This document shows, one piece after another, positions 21,213-57,577 of a stretch of DNA of 64,000 nt; the first letter of the stretch is position 1, and every line of letters starts with the position of its first letter. The stretch spans positions 4,774,001 to 4,838,000 of the forward strand of contig NZ_CP134053.1 of assembly GCF_031583065.1 (NCBI RefSeq), written 5' to 3'. The DNA is from Streptomyces sp. CGMCC 4.7035 (GTDB lineage Bacteria > Actinomycetota > Actinomycetes > Streptomycetales > Streptomycetaceae). The notes beneath the pieces were generated by a model. The model was given only the letters and a program-made list of their open reading frames with translations, did no database searches and was not told where the DNA came from. The translations under genes were made by a program, and so were the position numbers.

Positions 21213-22160
21213 ATGAACCTCACAGTGCGCCCGGTCACCCTCGACGACACGATCCCCTTGTGCGAACTCCTCAACGCGGTCGACGTGGCGGAGATCGGGC
21301 AACCGGAAACCGATCTGCACAGCGTGGAGGCCGGACTCAGGCGTCCCGGCCTGGACTTGGCACGGGACTCGTGGATCGGGGTCGACGACGACGGGCGGTT
21401 CGTGGCCTACGGACTGGTGTGGGACGTCGCGGGCGGCGAACGGATCGACATCGACCTGTACACGCTGCCGGACGCGGACGCGGCAGGGCGGCGGCTGCTG
21501 GAGCTGATGGAGGAGCGGGCGGCGGCCAAGGCCGCGGAGAACGGTGCCTCGCGTGCCGTGGTGCATCTGTATCTCAACTCCTCCCCCACTCTGGACACCA
21601 CACTGCTCGACGCCCGCGGCTGGCGGGTGATACGGCGGTTCAACGTGCTGACCCGCCCCGTGTCGGCGGCCGACGACCGGGCTCCCGTCCCGCCGCCCGG
21701 TGTGACCGTGCGCGAGTGCCGCACCGAGGCGGACCGCCGACGCGTGCACGAACTGCTGAACGCCTCGTTCGCCGACCACTTCGAGTACCACCCGCGCCCC
21801 TACGAACAGTGGCTGGAGACCCTGGGATCCGACCGGACGGACTGGTCCCTGGTGTGGATCGCCTCCGTGTCCGGCCTCGGCGACGCGGGTGTACTCATGG
21901 CCAGGAACGACGAGACGAGCATGGGCTGGATCCGGCATCTCGGCGTCCTGGAGACGGCGCGAGGTCGTGGGATCGGCAGTCATCTCCTGCGGCACGCCTT
22001 CACCGCGTTCGCCGCACGCGGGCGGGACACCGTGGGCCTCGGTGTGGACACGGAGAACACCTCGGAAGCGCTGCGGCTGTACCTGCGCCACGGCATGACG
22101 CTGCACTACGCCGTGCTCACTTGGCAGGTCGAGGTTCCGGTGAGTCCCACAGCCCCGTGA
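21213..22160 (+). CDS. Tandem GNAT-domain acetyltransferase-like protein
   Basis: The 315-residue protein has two GNAT-like halves. The first (1-150) is degenerate. The second (165-310) has the acetyl-CoA loop LGVLETARGRGIGSHLLRHAF, matching R/Q-x-x-G-x-G/A, and GVDTENTSEALRLYLRHGM. Such two-domain proteins are related to mycothiol synthase, but the substrate here is not clear. The ATG at 21213 follows GTGAGCGG. The last 44 nt overlap the convergent LOG-like gene. Confidence 0.82.
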   Translation: MNLTVRPVTLDDTIPLCELLNAVDVAEIGQPETDLHSVEAGLRRPGLDLARDSWIGVDDDGRFVAYGLVWDVAGGERIDIDLYTLPDADAAGRRLLELMEERAAAKAAENGASRAVVHLYLNSSPTLDTTLLDARGWRVIRRFNVLTRPVSAADDRAPVPPPGVTVRECRTEADRRRVHELLNASFADHFEYHPRPYEQWLETLGSDRTDWSLVWIASVSGLGDAGVLMARNDETSMGWIRHLGVLETARGRGIGSHLLRHAFTAFAARGRDTVGLGVDTENTSEALRLYLRHGMTLHYAVLTWQVEVPVSPTAP

Positions 22161-22617
22161 GATCCAGCGCCTCCGCGGGCGTCCGCGCATGGAGCACGCC
22201 GGGCAGATCCCGCCCCTCGGCGTCGATCGGCCGCCAGCCGTCGCCGAGTTGGATCACGGGCACGCCGCCCCGGCGCATGGCCAGGGCCAGCTCCGAGAGG
22301 GTGCCCCAGGAACCGCCGACCACGACGACGGCGTCCCCGCTGTGGATGATCACGCTGTTGCGGGCCTGCCCGAGACCGGTGGCGACGGCGGCGCTCAGAT
22401 CCGGTCCCGCACCGGCGCGATCGGCCTCGGACAGCACCCCGACGACCAGGCCGTCGCGGGAGCGGGCGCCCGCCGCCACCGCGGCCATCACCCCGCCGTA
22501 CCCACCGCAGATCACCACGGCGCCGCGCTCCGCGAGCAGCCGGCCCAGCTCGTACGCGAGGCTCCACTCCCGCTCGCCGCACCGCGCCGGCCCGCACACC
22601 GCCACCTGCACCGCCAT
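22117..22617 (-). CDS. LOG/TIGR00725-like nucleotide-binding protein
   Basis: The 166-residue Rossmann-fold protein shows VAVCGPARCGE, GGYGGVMAAVAAGA and VGGSWGTLSELALAM, the last matching the GGxGTxxE motif of LOG (cytokinin riboside monophosphate phosphoribohydrolase) relatives. The TIGR00725 subgroup is shorter than true LOG proteins and has no assigned function. It overlaps the GNAT gene tail to tail by 44 nt. Confidence 0.8.
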   Translation of the reverse strand: MAVQVAVCGPARCGEREWSLAYELGRLLAERGAVVICGGYGGVMAAVAAGARSRDGLVVGVLSEADRAGAGPDLSAAVATGLGQARNSVIIHSGDAVVVVGGSWGTLSELALAMRRGGVPVIQLGDGWRPIDAEGRDLPGVLHARTPAEALDLTGLWDSPEPRPAK

Positions 22618-22707
22618 GCCGGCCCACCTCCGGCGCGCACGATACTGCCCGGCAGGTCGCCGCGGCCGACAGCCTCGCCGTTCAGGTGCGGTACCGCTGA
22701 TCGCTCT

Positions 22708-23832
22708 TCATCCCACCCGGTATCGCTCGGCACGGCCGGCGTTCAGGGTCAGCCCGAGGCCCGGGGACCCGTCGGGTCCCGGGGTGACGGCGCCTCCGGC
22801 GGGGTCGAGAACGCCGTCGAAGAGGACGCGTTCGACGCGTACGTGGTCGTGGAACCACTCAAGATGGCGCAGATTGGGCACGGCGGACGCGGCGTGGACG
22901 TGCGCGTGCGGCGCGCAGTGCCCGGAGATGTCGAGGCCGTGGCCTTCGGCGAGCGCGGCGGCGCGCAGCCAGACGGTGATGCCGCCGCAGCGGGTGACGT
23001 CGGCCTGCAGGCAGTCGACCGCACCGGCATCGAGCAGGTGGGCGAAGTAGGCAAGGGTGTAGCCGTACTCACCGGCCGTCACGTCCATCGGCACGGCGAC
23101 ACGGATCGCCGCCAGCGTGCGGGGATGGTCGGAGGAGACCGGCTCCTCGAACCACCTCACCCCATGGTGGGTCAGGCGGTCGGCGACGCGGACGGCCTGC
23201 TTCGCCGTATAGGCGCCGTTGGCGTCCACGTACAGCTCGGCGCCGTTCCCGATGCAGGCCCGTGCCGCGCCGACGCGGTGCAGATCGCGTTCCTCGCACC
23301 GCCCCCACGACTCCCCGATCTTGATCTTGACGCGGGGGATGCCCTCGTCCTCCACCCAGGTCCGCAGCTGCCGCTCCTGTTGTCGGTCGTCGTAGGTGGT
23401 GAAGCCGCCGCTGCCGTAGAGCGGCACCGCGGTCCGCGCGGCGCCCAGCAGGTCGACGAGAGGCAGACCGAGCAGCCGGCTCTTGCAGTCCCACAGCGCG
23501 ATGTCCATGGCGGAGATCGCCTGCGCCGCCACACCGGGCCGTCCGGCGTTGCGCACGGTGCGGTGCATGGCCTCGTTCAGGCGCGGCACGTCGAGCACTG
23601 AGCCACCGACGACCACACCGGTCAGCAGCTCGTGGACGACCTGCGCGGTGGCCGCCGGGCCGTAGGTGTAGCCGAGGCCGGTGACATCACCGCAGCGGAC
23701 GGTGGCGAGTACGAGGGTGGTTCGGTCCCAGCTCAGGGTGCCGTCCGCCTCGGGCGTGTCGGTGGGCACGGTGTAGACGGCCGTGTCCACCCGCTCCACG
23801 GACGGTTTTCCGGACGCGGCGGTGTCCCTCAT
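22708..23832 (-). CDS. Enolase-superfamily (mandelate racemase/muconate lactonising) enzyme
   Basis: The 374-residue protein has the N-terminal capping domain and the TIM barrel with KIKIGES (KxK base), the metal ligand in LYVDANGAY, the next in VRWFEEPVSS, and a third in VTAGEYGYT. A His-rich CAPHAHVH segment follows. It probably abstracts a proton alpha to a carboxylate and dehydrates an acid sugar or related compound. It is last in a minus-strand run after the FAD/Fe-S dehydrogenase. Its ATG is the fifth ATG of an unusual tandem array of ribosome sites and starts (23830-23944). Confidence 0.88.
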   Translation of the reverse strand: MRDTAASGKPSVERVDTAVYTVPTDTPEADGTLSWDRTTLVLATVRCGDVTGLGYTYGPAATAQVVHELLTGVVVGGSVLDVPRLNEAMHRTVRNAGRPGVAAQAISAMDIALWDCKSRLLGLPLVDLLGAARTAVPLYGSGGFTTYDDRQQERQLRTWVEDEGIPRVKIKIGESWGRCEERDLHRVGAARACIGNGAELYVDANGAYTAKQAVRVADRLTHHGVRWFEEPVSSDHPRTLAAIRVAVPMDVTAGEYGYTLAYFAHLLDAGAVDCLQADVTRCGGITVWLRAAALAEGHGLDISGHCAPHAHVHAASAVPNLRHLEWFHDHVRVERVLFDGVLDPAGGAVTPGPDGSPGLGLTLNAGRAERYRVG

Positions 23833-23944
23833 CGGTCCTCCCCGGCTAGGAGCATCGGTCCTCCCCGGCTGTGAACATCAGTCCTCCGGGGCTACGAACA
23901 TCGGTCCTCCCCGGCTACGAACATCGCTCCTGCCCGACTACGAA
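23830..23944 (-). repeat. Five tandem 23-bp copies of a stop/ribosome-site/start module
   Basis: On the minus strand each unit reads close to TTCGTAG, then CCGGGGAGGACCG, then ATG. Units are 23922-23944, 23899-23921, 23876-23898, 23853-23875 and 23830-23852. The first holds the TAG that ends the upstream dehydrogenase; the last holds the start of the enolase-superfamily gene. Because 23 is not a multiple of 3, the four upstream ATGs open mini-ORFs of 7-10 codons (such as MLLAGEDR) ending at or just past the next ATG. This may tune translation through reinitiation. Confidence 0.9.
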
Positions 23945-26900
23945 CGGCGTCGCACGCGATGGGCGGCCACCGCGGCCGGAACCGCCGTCAGGGCGGCGGC
24001 CACCGCCGTGGTCGCCCAGCGGCCCAGGCGGGAGGGCTCGGCAGGACGCTCCGCCAGGTGTTCGGGCAGGTGGGCGGGCAGGACGCCGTCGAGGCCGAGC
24101 GCCAGCGCCTCGGCCAGGTGCAGGGCCCGGCGGCCCGTGCCCGCCTGTTCGATCTGGGTGCGGCAGCTGAAGCCGTCCGCGAGGAGCAGAGCCGCGGGGG
24201 ACGCCGCGCGGACGGCGGGAAGAACCCCCTGTTCCGCGACGGCCATGGACACCTCGTGGTGGCCGCGTTCGAATCCGAAGTTGCCCGCGAGTCCGCAGCA
24301 GCCCTCGTCCAGGACCTCGGCGTCGATGTGGGCGCGGCGCATCAGTTCACGGTCGGCGTCGTCGTGCGTGATCGCGTGCTGGTGACAGTGGGTCTGCACC
24401 ATGGCCTGCCGGGCGAGGGCGGGCGGCCGCCAGTCCTCGGGGGCGTGCTCGACGAGGTGCTCGGCGAAGGTGCGGAACCGCTCGGCCAGACGCCGCACGT
24501 CCGGGTCGGCCGACAGCAGTTCCGGCGCGTCCGCCCGGAACACGGCCGTGCAGGACGGTTCGAGGCCGATGACGGGGGTGCCCGCCTCGATCCATGGACG
24601 CAGTACGCCGAGCGTGTGCCGCAGAACCTGCTTCGCCACGGTCAGTTGACCGGTGGAGATCCAGGTCAGTCCGCAGCACACCGGCCTGGTGGGTACGGCG
24701 ACGTGGAATCCGGCGTCCTCCAGGACGCGGACGGCCGACCGCGCGATCGCCGGGTGGAAGTACGTGCTGAAGGTGTCGGGCCACAGCACCACCGCCCGTG
24801 GGTCGCCGGGGTCCGGCTCGTAGGTGCCACGGGCCCGCCACCATTGAAGGAACGACTCCCGGGCGAACACCGGGGCCTGGCGGGCGCCGTCCACTCCGGC
24901 CAGCCGTTTGCCTGCGTCGGCCAGGCCGGGCGCGTGCAGCGCGCTGTTGACCAGCGACGGCGCGATGCGGGAGAGCCGGGCCCACAGCGGAAGCCAGCCC
25001 ATGGAGTAGTGGGCGGCCGGGCGTGGCCTGCCCGCGTAGTGGTGGGCGAGGAACTCGGCCTTGTAGGTGGCCATGTCGACGCCGGTGGGGCAGTCCGATT
25101 TACAGCCCTTGCACGCCAGGCACAGGTCGAGGGCGTCCCGGACCTCGGTGGAGCGCCAGCCGTCGGTGATCGCGGAGTCCGCGTGGCCGTCGAGCATCTC
25201 GAACAGCAGCCGCGCACGGCCGCGGGTGGAGTGTTCCTCCTCCTGCGTGGCCCGGTAGGACGGGCACATCACGCCGCCGTGGTGGCTCCGACAGTTACCG
25301 ATGCCGACGCAGCGCAGCACGGCGCGGCTGAAGGAGTGTTCGTCCTCCGGATAGCCGAAGTGCGTCCGCACGGTGGCGGGCCGCCAGGCGGGGCCCAGCC
25401 GCAGCTGCCCGTCGACCGGGTTCGGATCGACGACCTTGCCCGGGTTCATTCGGTTACCGGGGTCGAACAGGGCCTTGAGTTCACCGAAGGCGGCCACGAG
25501 ACGCTCACCGAACATGCGGGTCAGCAGTTCACCCCGGGCCTGTCCGTCCCCGTGCTCTCCCGACAGGGATCCTCCGTACGCGGCCACGAGGTCGGCGGCC
25601 CGTTCCAGGAAGCGACGGAAGTCGGCGACGCCGTCGACGGTCGTCAGCCCGAACGGGATACGGGTGTGCACGCACCCTTGCCCGAAGTGTCCGTACAGCG
25701 AGGGGTGGTCGTAGCCGAAGTCGTCGAAAAGGTCCTTCAGGTCGCGCAGATAGTCGCCCAGGCGTTCGGGCGGGACGGCGGAGTCCTCCCAGCCCTCCCA
25801 GGTGTCCCGGTCGTCCGGCGGCCGAGCGGTCACGCCGAGGCCCGCCTCGCGGGCCCTCAGCATCTCCTGCTCGCGCGCGGGGTCGTCGGAGAAGGCGACC
25901 GCCGGGTCCTTCTCGCTGCGGCCCACCGCGCGCAGCAGTGCGTGTGCCTGCTCGTCGACGTCGTCCTGGCTGTCGCCGCTGAACTGCACGAGCAGCCAGC
26001 TGTCTCCCTCCGGAAGGGCGTGGAGGGAGTCGAGATAGGCGTGCTCCTCCCGCATGAGCTGTGCCATCCGCCCGTCGAGTGCCTCCAGTTGGCCGGGTGA
26101 GCAGTGCTCCAGGAGGCGGGGGACGTCATCGGCGGCGGAGCAGATGTCGTCGTACCCGAGGACCAGCAGCGACTGGCTGGGCGGCACGGGCACCAGGTCG
26201 AGTTCGGCGCGCAGCACCGTCACGAGGGTGCCCTCGCTGCCCACCAGGGTCTTGGCCACGTCGAAGTCGTTCTCCGGCAGCAGCGAGTCCAGGTTGTAGC
26301 CGGAGACGCGGCGCGGGATCTTCGGGTAACCGCGCCGTATGTCCGCCAGGTACTCGGTGACGATGCGGTCCAGGCCCTCGTGGATCTCGGCCCGGCGTCC
26401 GCCCTCCGCGACGATCCGCGTTCGCTCGGCCTTGGACGTCGGTCCCACCCACATGCGCGTTCCGTCATAGGTGAGGACCTCCAGGCGGCGCACGTTGTCC
26501 ACGGTCTTGCCGTACGCCTGCGCCGACGCCCCGCACGAGTTGTTGCCGATCATGCCACCGAGCGCGCAGTGGCTGTGCGTCGACGGCTTGGGCCCGAACT
26601 GGAGGCGGACGTCGGACAGCTGCCGGTTGAGTTCGTCCAGGACGAGCCCCGGTTCCACGACGCAGGTGCGGGCGTCGGGGTCGACCGACACGAGCGCATC
26701 GCAGTACTTGCTCCAGTCGATGATCACGGCCGTATTGGTCGTCTGGCCGGCCAGACTGGTGCCACCGCCCCGGGACAGGACCGGCGCGCCGAACCGTGCG
26801 CACACCTCGACGGCCCGGGCACCGGCCTCCACGTCACGCGGGATCACGACCCCGATGGGGACCTGACGGTAGTTGGAGCCGTCCGTGACGTACGCGCCCT

Positions 26901-27024
26901 TGCTGCCCGCATCGAACCGGACCTCGCCGTGCACCGCATCCCGCAGTGCCGCTTCCAGCCCGGCCACGTCCACTGCGGCTCCCGTCGGGTCGACGGGGAG
27001 GAACAAGCCGCTCAGCGGACTCAC
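23938..27024 (-). CDS. FAD-linked dehydrogenase fused to Fe-S domain (D-2-hydroxyacid/glycolate oxidase type)
   Basis: The 1028-residue protein joins an FAD_binding_4 domain (SRGGGTSLAGQTTN, about residue 85; GGMIGNNSCG), an FAD-oxidase C-terminal domain (LSGEHGDGQARGELL), a ferredoxin-like unit (LCLACKGCKSDCPTGVDM) and two CCG cysteine domains (CCGLTWISTGQL, CCGLAGNFGFERGHH). A possible membrane helix ends the protein. Relatives oxidise D-lactate, glycolate or 2-hydroxyglutarate and feed the quinone pool. GTG at 27024 overlaps the upstream stop as GTGA. With an SDR before and an enolase-type enzyme after, it suits catabolism of a hydroxy or sugar acid. Confidence 0.9.
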   Translation of the reverse strand: MSPLSGLFLPVDPTGAAVDVAGLEAALRDAVHGEVRFDAGSKGAYVTDGSNYRQVPIGVVIPRDVEAGARAVEVCARFGAPVLSRGGGTSLAGQTTNTAVIIDWSKYCDALVSVDPDARTCVVEPGLVLDELNRQLSDVRLQFGPKPSTHSHCALGGMIGNNSCGASAQAYGKTVDNVRRLEVLTYDGTRMWVGPTSKAERTRIVAEGGRRAEIHEGLDRIVTEYLADIRRGYPKIPRRVSGYNLDSLLPENDFDVAKTLVGSEGTLVTVLRAELDLVPVPPSQSLLVLGYDDICSAADDVPRLLEHCSPGQLEALDGRMAQLMREEHAYLDSLHALPEGDSWLLVQFSGDSQDDVDEQAHALLRAVGRSEKDPAVAFSDDPAREQEMLRAREAGLGVTARPPDDRDTWEGWEDSAVPPERLGDYLRDLKDLFDDFGYDHPSLYGHFGQGCVHTRIPFGLTTVDGVADFRRFLERAADLVAAYGGSLSGEHGDGQARGELLTRMFGERLVAAFGELKALFDPGNRMNPGKVVDPNPVDGQLRLGPAWRPATVRTHFGYPEDEHSFSRAVLRCVGIGNCRSHHGGVMCPSYRATQEEEHSTRGRARLLFEMLDGHADSAITDGWRSTEVRDALDLCLACKGCKSDCPTGVDMATYKAEFLAHHYAGRPRPAAHYSMGWLPLWARLSRIAPSLVNSALHAPGLADAGKRLAGVDGARQAPVFARESFLQWWRARGTYEPDPGDPRAVVLWPDTFSTYFHPAIARSAVRVLEDAGFHVAVPTRPVCCGLTWISTGQLTVAKQVLRHTLGVLRPWIEAGTPVIGLEPSCTAVFRADAPELLSADPDVRRLAERFRTFAEHLVEHAPEDWRPPALARQAMVQTHCHQHAITHDDADRELMRRAHIDAEVLDEGCCGLAGNFGFERGHHEVSMAVAEQGVLPAVRAASPAALLLADGFSCRTQIEQAGTGRRALHLAEALALGLDGVLPAHLPEHLAERPAEPSRLGRWATTAVAAALTAVPAAVAAHRVRRRS

Positions 27025-28049
27025 CCGACCTTCCGCCCCTGGAGAGGTGCCGTCGGTGCGCCGGCGCCCTCCTGGACCCCGTGCAGGAACTCCTCCATGA
27101 CCTCGGTCGCCGTCCGCTGCGGCCGCCAGGCCAGTTCGGTCTGCGCGCGTGTGCAGTCCATGAGCGGCAGTCGCAGCACGGCGTCGAAGAGGTGCGGGGA
27201 CGCGGGCAGCAGACGCAGCCCCCACGCGGCGGCGATCGCCGACCGTGCGGCCGTGCGGGGCATCCGCACGGGGCGGGATCCCAGCAGCTCGCCCAGTACG
27301 GCCGCGTCGAGGGGCGGGTCGGCGGCCAGGTTGAACGCGCCCCGGACGTCACTTTGCAGCGCGAGCTGGTAGGCGCGGGCCGCGTCGTCGGTGTGCAGCG
27401 CCTGCACCCGCAGCCCTGGGATGTCCGGCAGGAACGGCAGCAGCTCCGGCCGGATCAGCGGTCCGGGCAGGAACCGTCCGCCGAAGATGCGCCGCTGTTC
27501 GCTCGCCGACTCGCGCTTGAACAGGAACGCGGGCCGCATCCGTACGACACGGACGCCGGGATGCTCGTACTCGTACGCGTCGAGTGTCCGCTCCAGGTAG
27601 GCCTTCTCCCGTGTGTAGGCGGCGTCCGGCCAGCCGTGCGTGGGCCAGGACTCGTCCACGGCGTGGTCCTCAGGACCCGGGGAGTAGGCGCCGACCGACG
27701 AGGCGTGCACGAGCGTCGGCACCTCGGCGGCGGCGACGGCCTCGAAGACCCGGATGCTTCCGAGCACGTTCGTCCGCCAGGTCGCGACCGGATCGTGCGT
27801 GGGCTGGAACGCCCACGCCAGGTGTACGACCGCGTCGGCGCCCTCGAACTCCGTCACCAGGTCGGCCTGCTCCGAGGCGAGGTCGACCTCCGACCACCGC
27901 ACGCGTTCCGGGCCGAGGTCGGGGACGCGGCGAGCCAGGCCCCGCACGCTGTCGACGTCCGGGTCCTCGGCGAGCAGGCGCACGAGGCTGGTGCCCACAT
28001 TGCCGGTGGCCCCCGTGACAACGATCTTTGTGCCTGTTGCGGTGCTCAC
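27021..28049 (-). CDS. NAD-dependent epimerase/dehydratase (extended SDR)
   Basis: The 342-residue protein starts with the Rossmann loop VTGATGNVGTSLVRLL and has HLAWAFQPTHD, LVHASSVGAYSPG and the YTREK (YxxxK) catalytic pair. GAGGAG stands 7 nt before the GTG at 28049. It heads the three-gene run with the FAD/Fe-S and enolase-type enzymes. It probably acts on a sugar-derived or lactone substrate; which one is not visible. Confidence 0.88.
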   Translation of the reverse strand: MSTATGTKIVVTGATGNVGTSLVRLLAEDPDVDSVRGLARRVPDLGPERVRWSEVDLASEQADLVTEFEGADAVVHLAWAFQPTHDPVATWRTNVLGSIRVFEAVAAAEVPTLVHASSVGAYSPGPEDHAVDESWPTHGWPDAAYTREKAYLERTLDAYEYEHPGVRVVRMRPAFLFKRESASEQRRIFGGRFLPGPLIRPELLPFLPDIPGLRVQALHTDDAARAYQLALQSDVRGAFNLAADPPLDAAVLGELLGSRPVRMPRTAARSAIAAAWGLRLLPASPHLFDAVLRLPLMDCTRAQTELAWRPQRTATEVMEEFLHGVQEGAGAPTAPLQGRKVG

Positions 28050-28141
28050 TTCTGGGCTCCTCTCGGTGACCGGTGACCGGTCCCTGCGAGTACCCGGTGC
28101 ACACGGAAGCACCCAGGGCTCGGCGAGCGAACAGGACCCGG

Positions 28142-28486
28142 TCAGCCGTCCGTCGCCGGGGCCTGCGCCGGGGCCGGGCCGCGCTGCGCGTCGTGCCGGG
28201 CGAGGAGGGCGAGCAGGTCGGAGACGGTCAGGCTCGCGTCGGCCGGGTGCCGCAGAGGGATACCCGGCTCGATGCGATAGGTGTTCGAGCGCCCCGCACG
28301 GTTACGGGTCAGATAGCCCCCCTGCACCAAATCAGAAATGATCTTCTGAACGGCGCGTTCCGTCAGTCGGCAGCGGACCGCGATGTCCCGGATACGGGTG
28401 CTCTGGTCCTCTGCGATGGCGGCCAGCACGCGCGCATGGTTGGTGAGGAAGGTCCATCCTGTATGCGGCTCAGGCACTCCACCCAT
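28142..28486 (-). CDS. Winged-helix (MarR/IclR-like) regulator
   Basis: The 114-residue protein has a winged helix-turn-helix at residues 10-70 (VLAAIAEDQSTRIRDIAVRCRLTERAVQKIISDLVQGGYLTRNRAGRSNTYRI). The C-terminal part is short. The ATG at 28486 is preferred over a TTG at 28507. It lies 92 nt upstream of the SDR gene in the same direction and divergent from the STAS-ANTAR gene. Palindromes in the AT-rich gap at 28510-28567 are probable binding sites. Confidence 0.8.
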   Translation of the reverse strand: MGGVPEPHTGWTFLTNHARVLAAIAEDQSTRIRDIAVRCRLTERAVQKIISDLVQGGYLTRNRAGRSNTYRIEPGIPLRHPADASLTVSDLLALLARHDAQRGPAPAQAPATDG

Positions 28487-28509
28487 GTATTCGATGGTAG
28501 GCCCCAAAA

Positions 28510-42708: not shown

Positions 42709-42744
42709 CGACGGGGTGACGGCACGTGCGTCGTCACCCCGTCG
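42709..42744 (+). terminator. Terminator after the NlpC/P60 gene
   Basis: CGACGGGGTGACG (42709-42721) pairs perfectly with CGTCACCCCGTCG (42732-42744), 13 bp with a 10-nt loop. The right arm is the start of the first unit of the repeat array that follows. Confidence 0.7.
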
Positions 42745-42803
42745 GGGCGTGAGGCCGTCACCCCGTCGGGGCGTGAGGCCGTCACCCCGTCGGGGCGTGA
42801 GGA
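42732..42803. repeat. 24-bp tandem repeat, three copies
   Basis: Units at 42732-42755, 42756-42779 and 42780-42803 begin CGTCACCCCGTCGGGGCG and are identical except at the final base. Any copy could pair with 42709-42721, so there are three alternative terminator hairpins. Confidence 0.92.
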
Positions 42804-46548: not shown

Positions 46549-46636
46549 AGTCACTTCCGTACGACGTGCAAGTCACTTCCGTACGACGTGCAAGTCACTT
46601 CCGTACGACGCGCGAGTCACTTCCGTACGACGCGCG
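46549..46636. repeat. 22-bp tandem repeat, four copies
   Basis: Units begin AGTCACTTCCGTACGACG at 46549, 46571, 46593 and 46615. The first two end TGCA, the last two CGCG. They lie between the convergent DUF397 and bioF genes. Confidence 0.92.
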
Positions 46637-57485: not shown

Positions 57486-57577
57486 CGGCACGGCGAACGA
57501 GCAGCCGTCCGCACCACGAACGAACAACCATCCGCACCACGAACGAGCAGCCGACCGCACGGCGAACGAGTGGCCGA
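57486..57577. repeat. 23-bp tandem repeat, four imperfect copies
   Basis: Units at 57486, 57509, 57532 and 57555 resemble CCGCACCACGAACGAGCAGC. They fill most of the gap between the oxidoreductase and GNAT genes. No ribosome site or start codon is part of the unit. Confidence 0.88.

Follow-up and report, generated by a model that had tools for sequence, protein, structure and literature searches.

Why does the start of one gene stand five times over behind the end of its neighbour? The question is raised by a cistron junction of Streptomyces sp. CGMCC 4.7035, inside a 64,000-nucleotide stretch of contig NZ_CP134053.1 (positions 4,774,001 to 4,838,000; the window). A first-pass annotation had read there five tandem copies of a complete translation-initiation module before an enolase-superfamily gene.

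Both genes of the junction lie on the minus strand. The upstream gene (23938..27090; Pfam, NCBIfam) encodes an FAD-linked oxidase/4Fe-4S protein and has an uncertain start, with GTG at 27090 taken for searches and 26973 given by the gene caller. The downstream gene (22708..23832; Pfam, NCBIfam) encodes a 374-aa mandelate racemase/muconate lactonizing enzyme of the enolase superfamily that reached no equivalog cut-off in the NCBIfam search. Its ATG, with the A at 23832, is supported by two proteins (P0002 and P0003), 86-87% identical to it, that begin at the same methionine. From the stop of the FAD gene to the real enolase start there are 105 nt.

The array was delimited with TRF, unit comparison and dinucleotide shuffles. 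Five contiguous 23-bp units run head to tail on the minus strand from 23944 to 23830, spanning the upstream stop to the real start and thus lying between genes, against the start codon. Identity at lag 23 is 78 of 92 positions (0.85), while the best value over lags 10-59 in 1000 dinucleotide shuffles was 0.53, which rejects a chance origin and bears out the five tandem copies. An assembly artefact is unlikely, since the units differ from one another and the genome is one contig. As a head-to-tail repeat of a 10-100 bp unit outside coding sequence, the array is an intergenic minisatellite.

Unit 1 (23922..23944) carries the TAG stop of the FAD gene (23940-23938), AGGAG and ATG1 (23924); unit 2 (23899..23921) GGAGG and ATG2 (23901); unit 3 (23876..23898) GGAGG and, within TGATG, ATG3 (23878); unit 4 (23853..23875) GGAGG and ATG4 (23855); and unit 5 (23830..23852) GGAGG and the real ATG (23832-23830), which forms an ATGA overlap with the fourth mini-ORF described below. 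The first unit holds the real upstream stop and the last the real downstream start, and this anatomy confirms that the cistron junction itself has been multiplied. The annotation had further given every unit a TAG-type stop and a ribosome site at near-ideal spacing. The ATG and a Shine-Dalgarno (SD)-like core are indeed kept in all five units, but TAG is present in four (CAG in unit 4) and GGGGAGGA is exact in three, with GGCAGGAG in unit 1 and CCGGAGGA in unit 3. A spacing of 4 nt between GGAGG and ATG is nothing unusual in this genome: it occurs in 26 of the 202 called genes that have GGAGG no more than 20 nt upstream, the mode being 7. SD-anti-SD duplex energies of the units, calculated with an assumed 16S tail sequence, range from -8.0 to -10.8 kcal/mol. 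Pairwise unit identity is 17-21 of 23, that is, 2-6 positions differ. Nine of the 23 columns vary, 8 of 15 outside the SD and ATG versus 1 of 8 inside (p 0.07).

Tandem sites often bind regulators, and the repeat might be a DNA or RNA element unrelated to translation, such as protein-binding sites, a promoter or a structured RNA. We hold this to be very improbable: the unit is exactly an SD-start module, no promoter- or terminator-like site was found within 23600-24300 with sigma-70-type models, and there was no Rfam match within 22000-28500.

The annotation had advised comparing unit number in related strains. A second strain carrying this junction did not turn up. In 30 related loci where an FAD gene adjoins an enolase gene (four of them apparently the same contig taken twice) the comparison did not return this array, and the test used found no tandem copy of the start region at any of these junctions. 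Absence from all 30 points to a local origin, and an ancestral operon feature is rejected. At the S. echinoruber junction (L040:3866-4001) stands an unrelated 18-bp repeat that contains GAGGA but no ATG. In two near relatives (G273 and G183; loci L304 and L305) the FAD gene, at 88% identity, is followed directly by a SLOG-family (TIGR00725) gene. The enolase gene, which in the window stands between these two, is absent there and has thus been gained or lost in the clade.

The relatives also bear on a reading in which the array frees enolase translation from the upstream gene, coupling being lost stepwise along the relay and the last start being supplied by local SDs. At 27 of the 30 junctions the two genes overlap or lie at most 20 nt apart (the gap is longer in L040, L059 and L109), and the 105 nt here would suit such decoupling. 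A plain spacer would serve equally, however, and we consider this role distinctly unlikely.

Within the 8.09-Mb genome, a search for the unit core with up to two mismatches gave three exact places, all inside the array, and six other matches, single and scattered, with one or two mismatches. With the unit core at one genome place, a dispersed mobile repeat is rejected. Tandem arrays as such number 499 in 1.664 Mb of this genome. Of the 439 with periods of 12-100, 205 lie mostly outside called genes, as judged with a simple gene caller, and 91 of these have about three or more copies. The window itself has more intergenic tandem repeats of 22-24 bp (42732-42802, 46549-46632 and 57494-57570), in which no start module was noticed. 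In a test of 1237 of the genome's gene starts for tandem duplication of the start region, a repeated SD-ATG appeared only at the enolase gene; the test covered 80 + 1 stretches, about 20% of the genome, a sample that missed the genome's own kinase-regulator ladder (see below). At two loci (L184 and L152) the start codon is repeated without an SD, and for five more genes the matching copy had no start codon. The L184 repeat (L184:18386-18473; C1:4768386-4768473), at another co-directional junction, has a 15-bp unit in about six copies, with ATG/GTG starts and stops and no SD (ATG CCG CCG TGA). The focal array is thus a genuine repeat of a start module, local and specific to its lineage.

The four extra ATGs open mini-ORFs of 7-10 codons, as the annotation had it, all on the minus strand. 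Mini-ORF 1 (MFVAGEDRCS, 10 codons, 23892..23924) ends at a TAG in unit 3, 13 nt before ATG3; mini-ORF 2 (MFVAPED, 7 codons, 23878..23901) at a TGA sharing 1 nt with ATG3; mini-ORF 3 (MFTAGEDRCS, 10 codons, 23846..23878) at a TAG of unit 5 that precedes the real ATG by 13 nt; and mini-ORF 4 (MLLAGEDR, 8 codons, 23829..23855) at a TGA that shares 4 nt with the real start. Measured from each stop to the following ATG, the distances are -10, -1, -10 and -4 nt, in keeping with the suggested ladder of possible reinitiation. Mini-ORFs 1 and 3 thus run 10 nt past the next ATG, and their stops lie 13 nt ahead of the one that follows it. A stop that overlaps the next start or lies a few nt from it, as in termination-reinitiation, is found at mini-ORFs 2 and 4; that of the FAD gene lies 13 nt before ATG1. 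With overlaps at mini-ORFs 2 and 4 and 13-nt steps elsewhere, the array offers two interleaved routes, both ending at the real start, and from the sequence ribosomes may use both.

The likeliest reading, which we hold to be probable, is that a minisatellite expanded locally and was tolerated, each copy being in itself a complete stop-SD-start relay. A 23-bp piece over the cistron junction, comprising the upstream stop, the SD and the downstream start, would have been tandemly duplicated to five copies by the process that makes the genome's many intergenic minisatellites, and would persist because every copy is such a module. A ribosome that set out from any extra ATG would terminate either on a later ATG or 13 nt short of one, and the real start would end all routes. 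The last SD and ATG would drive most enolase translation de novo, with the upstream modules adding a modest relay. The anatomy is observed; from it we infer the reinitiation, its size and its tolerance. In favour of a relay, a 15-nt upstream fragment is sufficient for termination-reinitiation in E. coli (PMC10666635). Against it stands the overrun at mini-ORFs 1 and 3. Few ribosomes may cross the 13-nt steps, because an intergenic distance of about 20 nt almost abolishes coupling in the two-species experiments described in PMC10666635, where two E. coli gene pairs at a 14-nt gap reinitiate at 60% and under 20%.

Similar ladders were sought in other Streptomyces with seven patterns for three SD-start modules in a row, differing in spacings and codons, each with its reversed pattern as control. 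The sets comprised 246, 246, 179, 179, 150, 150 and 150 genomes; they overlap, and genomes recur. Genomes with pattern versus control numbered 5 versus 9 and 5 versus 11 (of 246), 3 versus 3 and 2 versus 7 (of 179), and 9 versus 9, 2 versus 1 and 1 versus 3 (of 150), in sum 27 versus 43 genome-by-pattern cases. Since the control occurs in more genomes than the ladder pattern, ladders as such are not enriched over background for these seven patterns in these overlapping sets, and this too counts against the relay.

Eight genome-by-pattern matches, at six different genes of which two are uncertain, lead into an open gene. Beside the focal junction (23 bp, five units), a ladder stands between a histidine kinase gene and that of a DpiA-like response regulator, with three 44-bp units in the same genome (L245:1500-1602; C1:1693456-1693557; seen alongside L241 and L244), three 41-bp units in G183 and seven 41-bp units in G273. 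There the two unit lengths differ by 3, and the mini-ORF stops share 4 nt with the next ATG. This ladder was found in 3 of 32 distinct regulator loci (30 listed of the 188 genomes with a match, plus G273 and G183). A third precedes a Tad-like gene (G151; 35 bp, with two steps of 62 bp) and a fourth a LacI-type regulator gene (G021, L252:1455-1569; 29 bp, with one step of 56 and three leader ORFs). The last has no co-directional gene in front and is possibly a leader-peptide series. The remaining two, at a sigma-factor junction (G116; 23 bp, with one 42-nt step containing a 19-nt one) and a polysaccharide-deacetylase junction (G028; 23 and 20 bp), are less certain because their downstream frames have no Pfam match, and the true start in G028 may be a later ATG.

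Other matches were not counted as ladders: a 23-bp repeat after a gene end with no gene called behind (L217), a 21-bp repeat about 300 nt before a gene (L218), repeats on the opposite strand of called genes (L242, L285, L286 and L291), a 24-bp in-frame repeat (L243), in-frame coding repeats (L251, L288, L290, L299 and L300, with a called start inside L299), one at a contig end (L250), four without a gene start (L287, L289, L292 and L293) and a 25-bp repeat without a gene (L303). Those of G257 were also set aside as dispersed 32-33-bp repeats, L220 alone having been read in detail. That family, GGAGGCCCCATG..., forms arrays at several places and on both strands of G257 (L220, L228-L240).

At all six ladder genes the main unit length is 3n+2, the length needed because only then can a mini-ORF overlap the next start by -4 or -1. 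Among the genome's own intergenic arrays, 3n+2 and 3n+1 stand at 51:50; against this baseline the six genes give p ~0.017 and the four firmest alone p ~0.065, in a small-sample post hoc test conceived after the cases had been seen. Units of 3n, being in-frame protein extensions, were excluded from the ladder count; a looser test that adds two in-frame cases, an arbitrary choice, gives 6 of 8 at 3n+2 versus an expected third (p 0.020). The 3n+2 lengths join the lower variation of the SD and ATG columns, the local origin and the commonness of intergenic arrays in favour of the relay reading.

Some of the same observations suit a neutral minisatellite that happens to cover a gene start, its extra SD-ATG copies unused and only the last one mattering. 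Arrays are common in this genome, the reversed control is at least as frequent as the ladder pattern, and the units have diverged at nine columns; yet the SD-like core and the ATG are kept in every unit, and ladders before genes have 3n+2 units. We rank this account second, as a serious alternative that is nonetheless improbable.

The annotation had also proposed that copy number sets expression of the enzyme and varies by slippage. In its strong form, an evolved rheostat, module number would be selected to set enolase output and slippage would change it. Unit number does differ between species at the unrelated kinase-regulator junction (1 in G208, 3 in our genome, 3 in G183 and 7 in G273), and in M. 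tuberculosis strains longer tandem repeats before fpg1 went with more mRNA, by the account in PMC2734929. The focal units, however, are diverged with no sign of recent copying, and differences at 2-6 of 23 positions weaken the case for current slippage there; the fpg1 effect is modest and on mRNA, with units of 55 and 79 bp that are both 3n+1 (PMC2734929). A rheostat seems to us unlikely.

The ladder has engineered and natural counterparts. In a bicistronic design, an engineered leader peptide is encoded by a short SD-led ORF whose stop overlaps the start that it feeds. The focal array likewise has short SD-led ORFs that could deliver ribosomes to an overlapping start, but it is natural and places several stages in series. 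Mini-ORFs 2 and 4 show the overlaps of ATGA/TGATG termination-reinitiation coupling as described in PMC6728339; the array is set apart in that the overlap recurs and mini-ORFs take the upstream place. In Actinobacteria, leader ORFs at 10-11 bp from genes, short and proposed to raise translation by reinitiation, are single rather than tandem, in a study that takes at most one leader per gene (PMC4833913).

The claim that no case of this form had been described does not stand, since MIRUs (mycobacterial interspersed repetitive units) are a precedent (PMC12548453, PMC4213456, PMC2734929). A 2025 translational-coupling review describes them as repeats located at start codons, whose small ORF shows -4 nt coupling (PMC12548453); the focal distances are -10, -1, -10 and -4 nt. 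By their published descriptions MIRUs share with our array the position at a cistron junction and a small ORF per unit. Their number varies between strains, as unit number does between species at the Streptomyces kinase-regulator ladder, which moreover shares its type of junction with the MIRUs of senX3-regX3. The latter have units of 77 and 53 bp, both 3n+2 by arithmetic, whose make-up differs between strains (PMC4213456). MIRUs, however, are one dispersed family with 41 places in H37Rv, thought to insert at start codons (PMC2734929), whereas the 23-bp unit is shorter, stands at one genome place and looks copied from the local junction. VNTR3239/ETR-F, in front of fpg1, is likewise a variable tandem repeat between two genes that ends at a start codon, and its length was correlated with expression; it differs in its 3n+1 units of 55 and 79 bp, in an effect seen at the mRNA level and in the absence of a start module from its description (PMC2734929). 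For Streptomyces, no description of such ladders was found among the titles and abstract starts of the open-licence papers searched, a scope mostly outside subscription journals.

Streptomyces may repeatedly and independently make 3n+2 relay ladders, with copy number drifting or tuned, as a convergent, non-mobile counterpart of MIRUs in which each mini-ORF would hand its ribosome to the next start; we offer this tentatively. If the relay fails, the junction is a clean case of a harmless minisatellite over a gene start. If it works, start-module copy number would be a simple evolvable control on operon stoichiometry, the 1, 3, 3 and 7 units at one orthologous junction would form a natural series for multi-stage reinitiation, and the relay would explain which tandem duplications a gene start can bear, namely those of length 3n+2.
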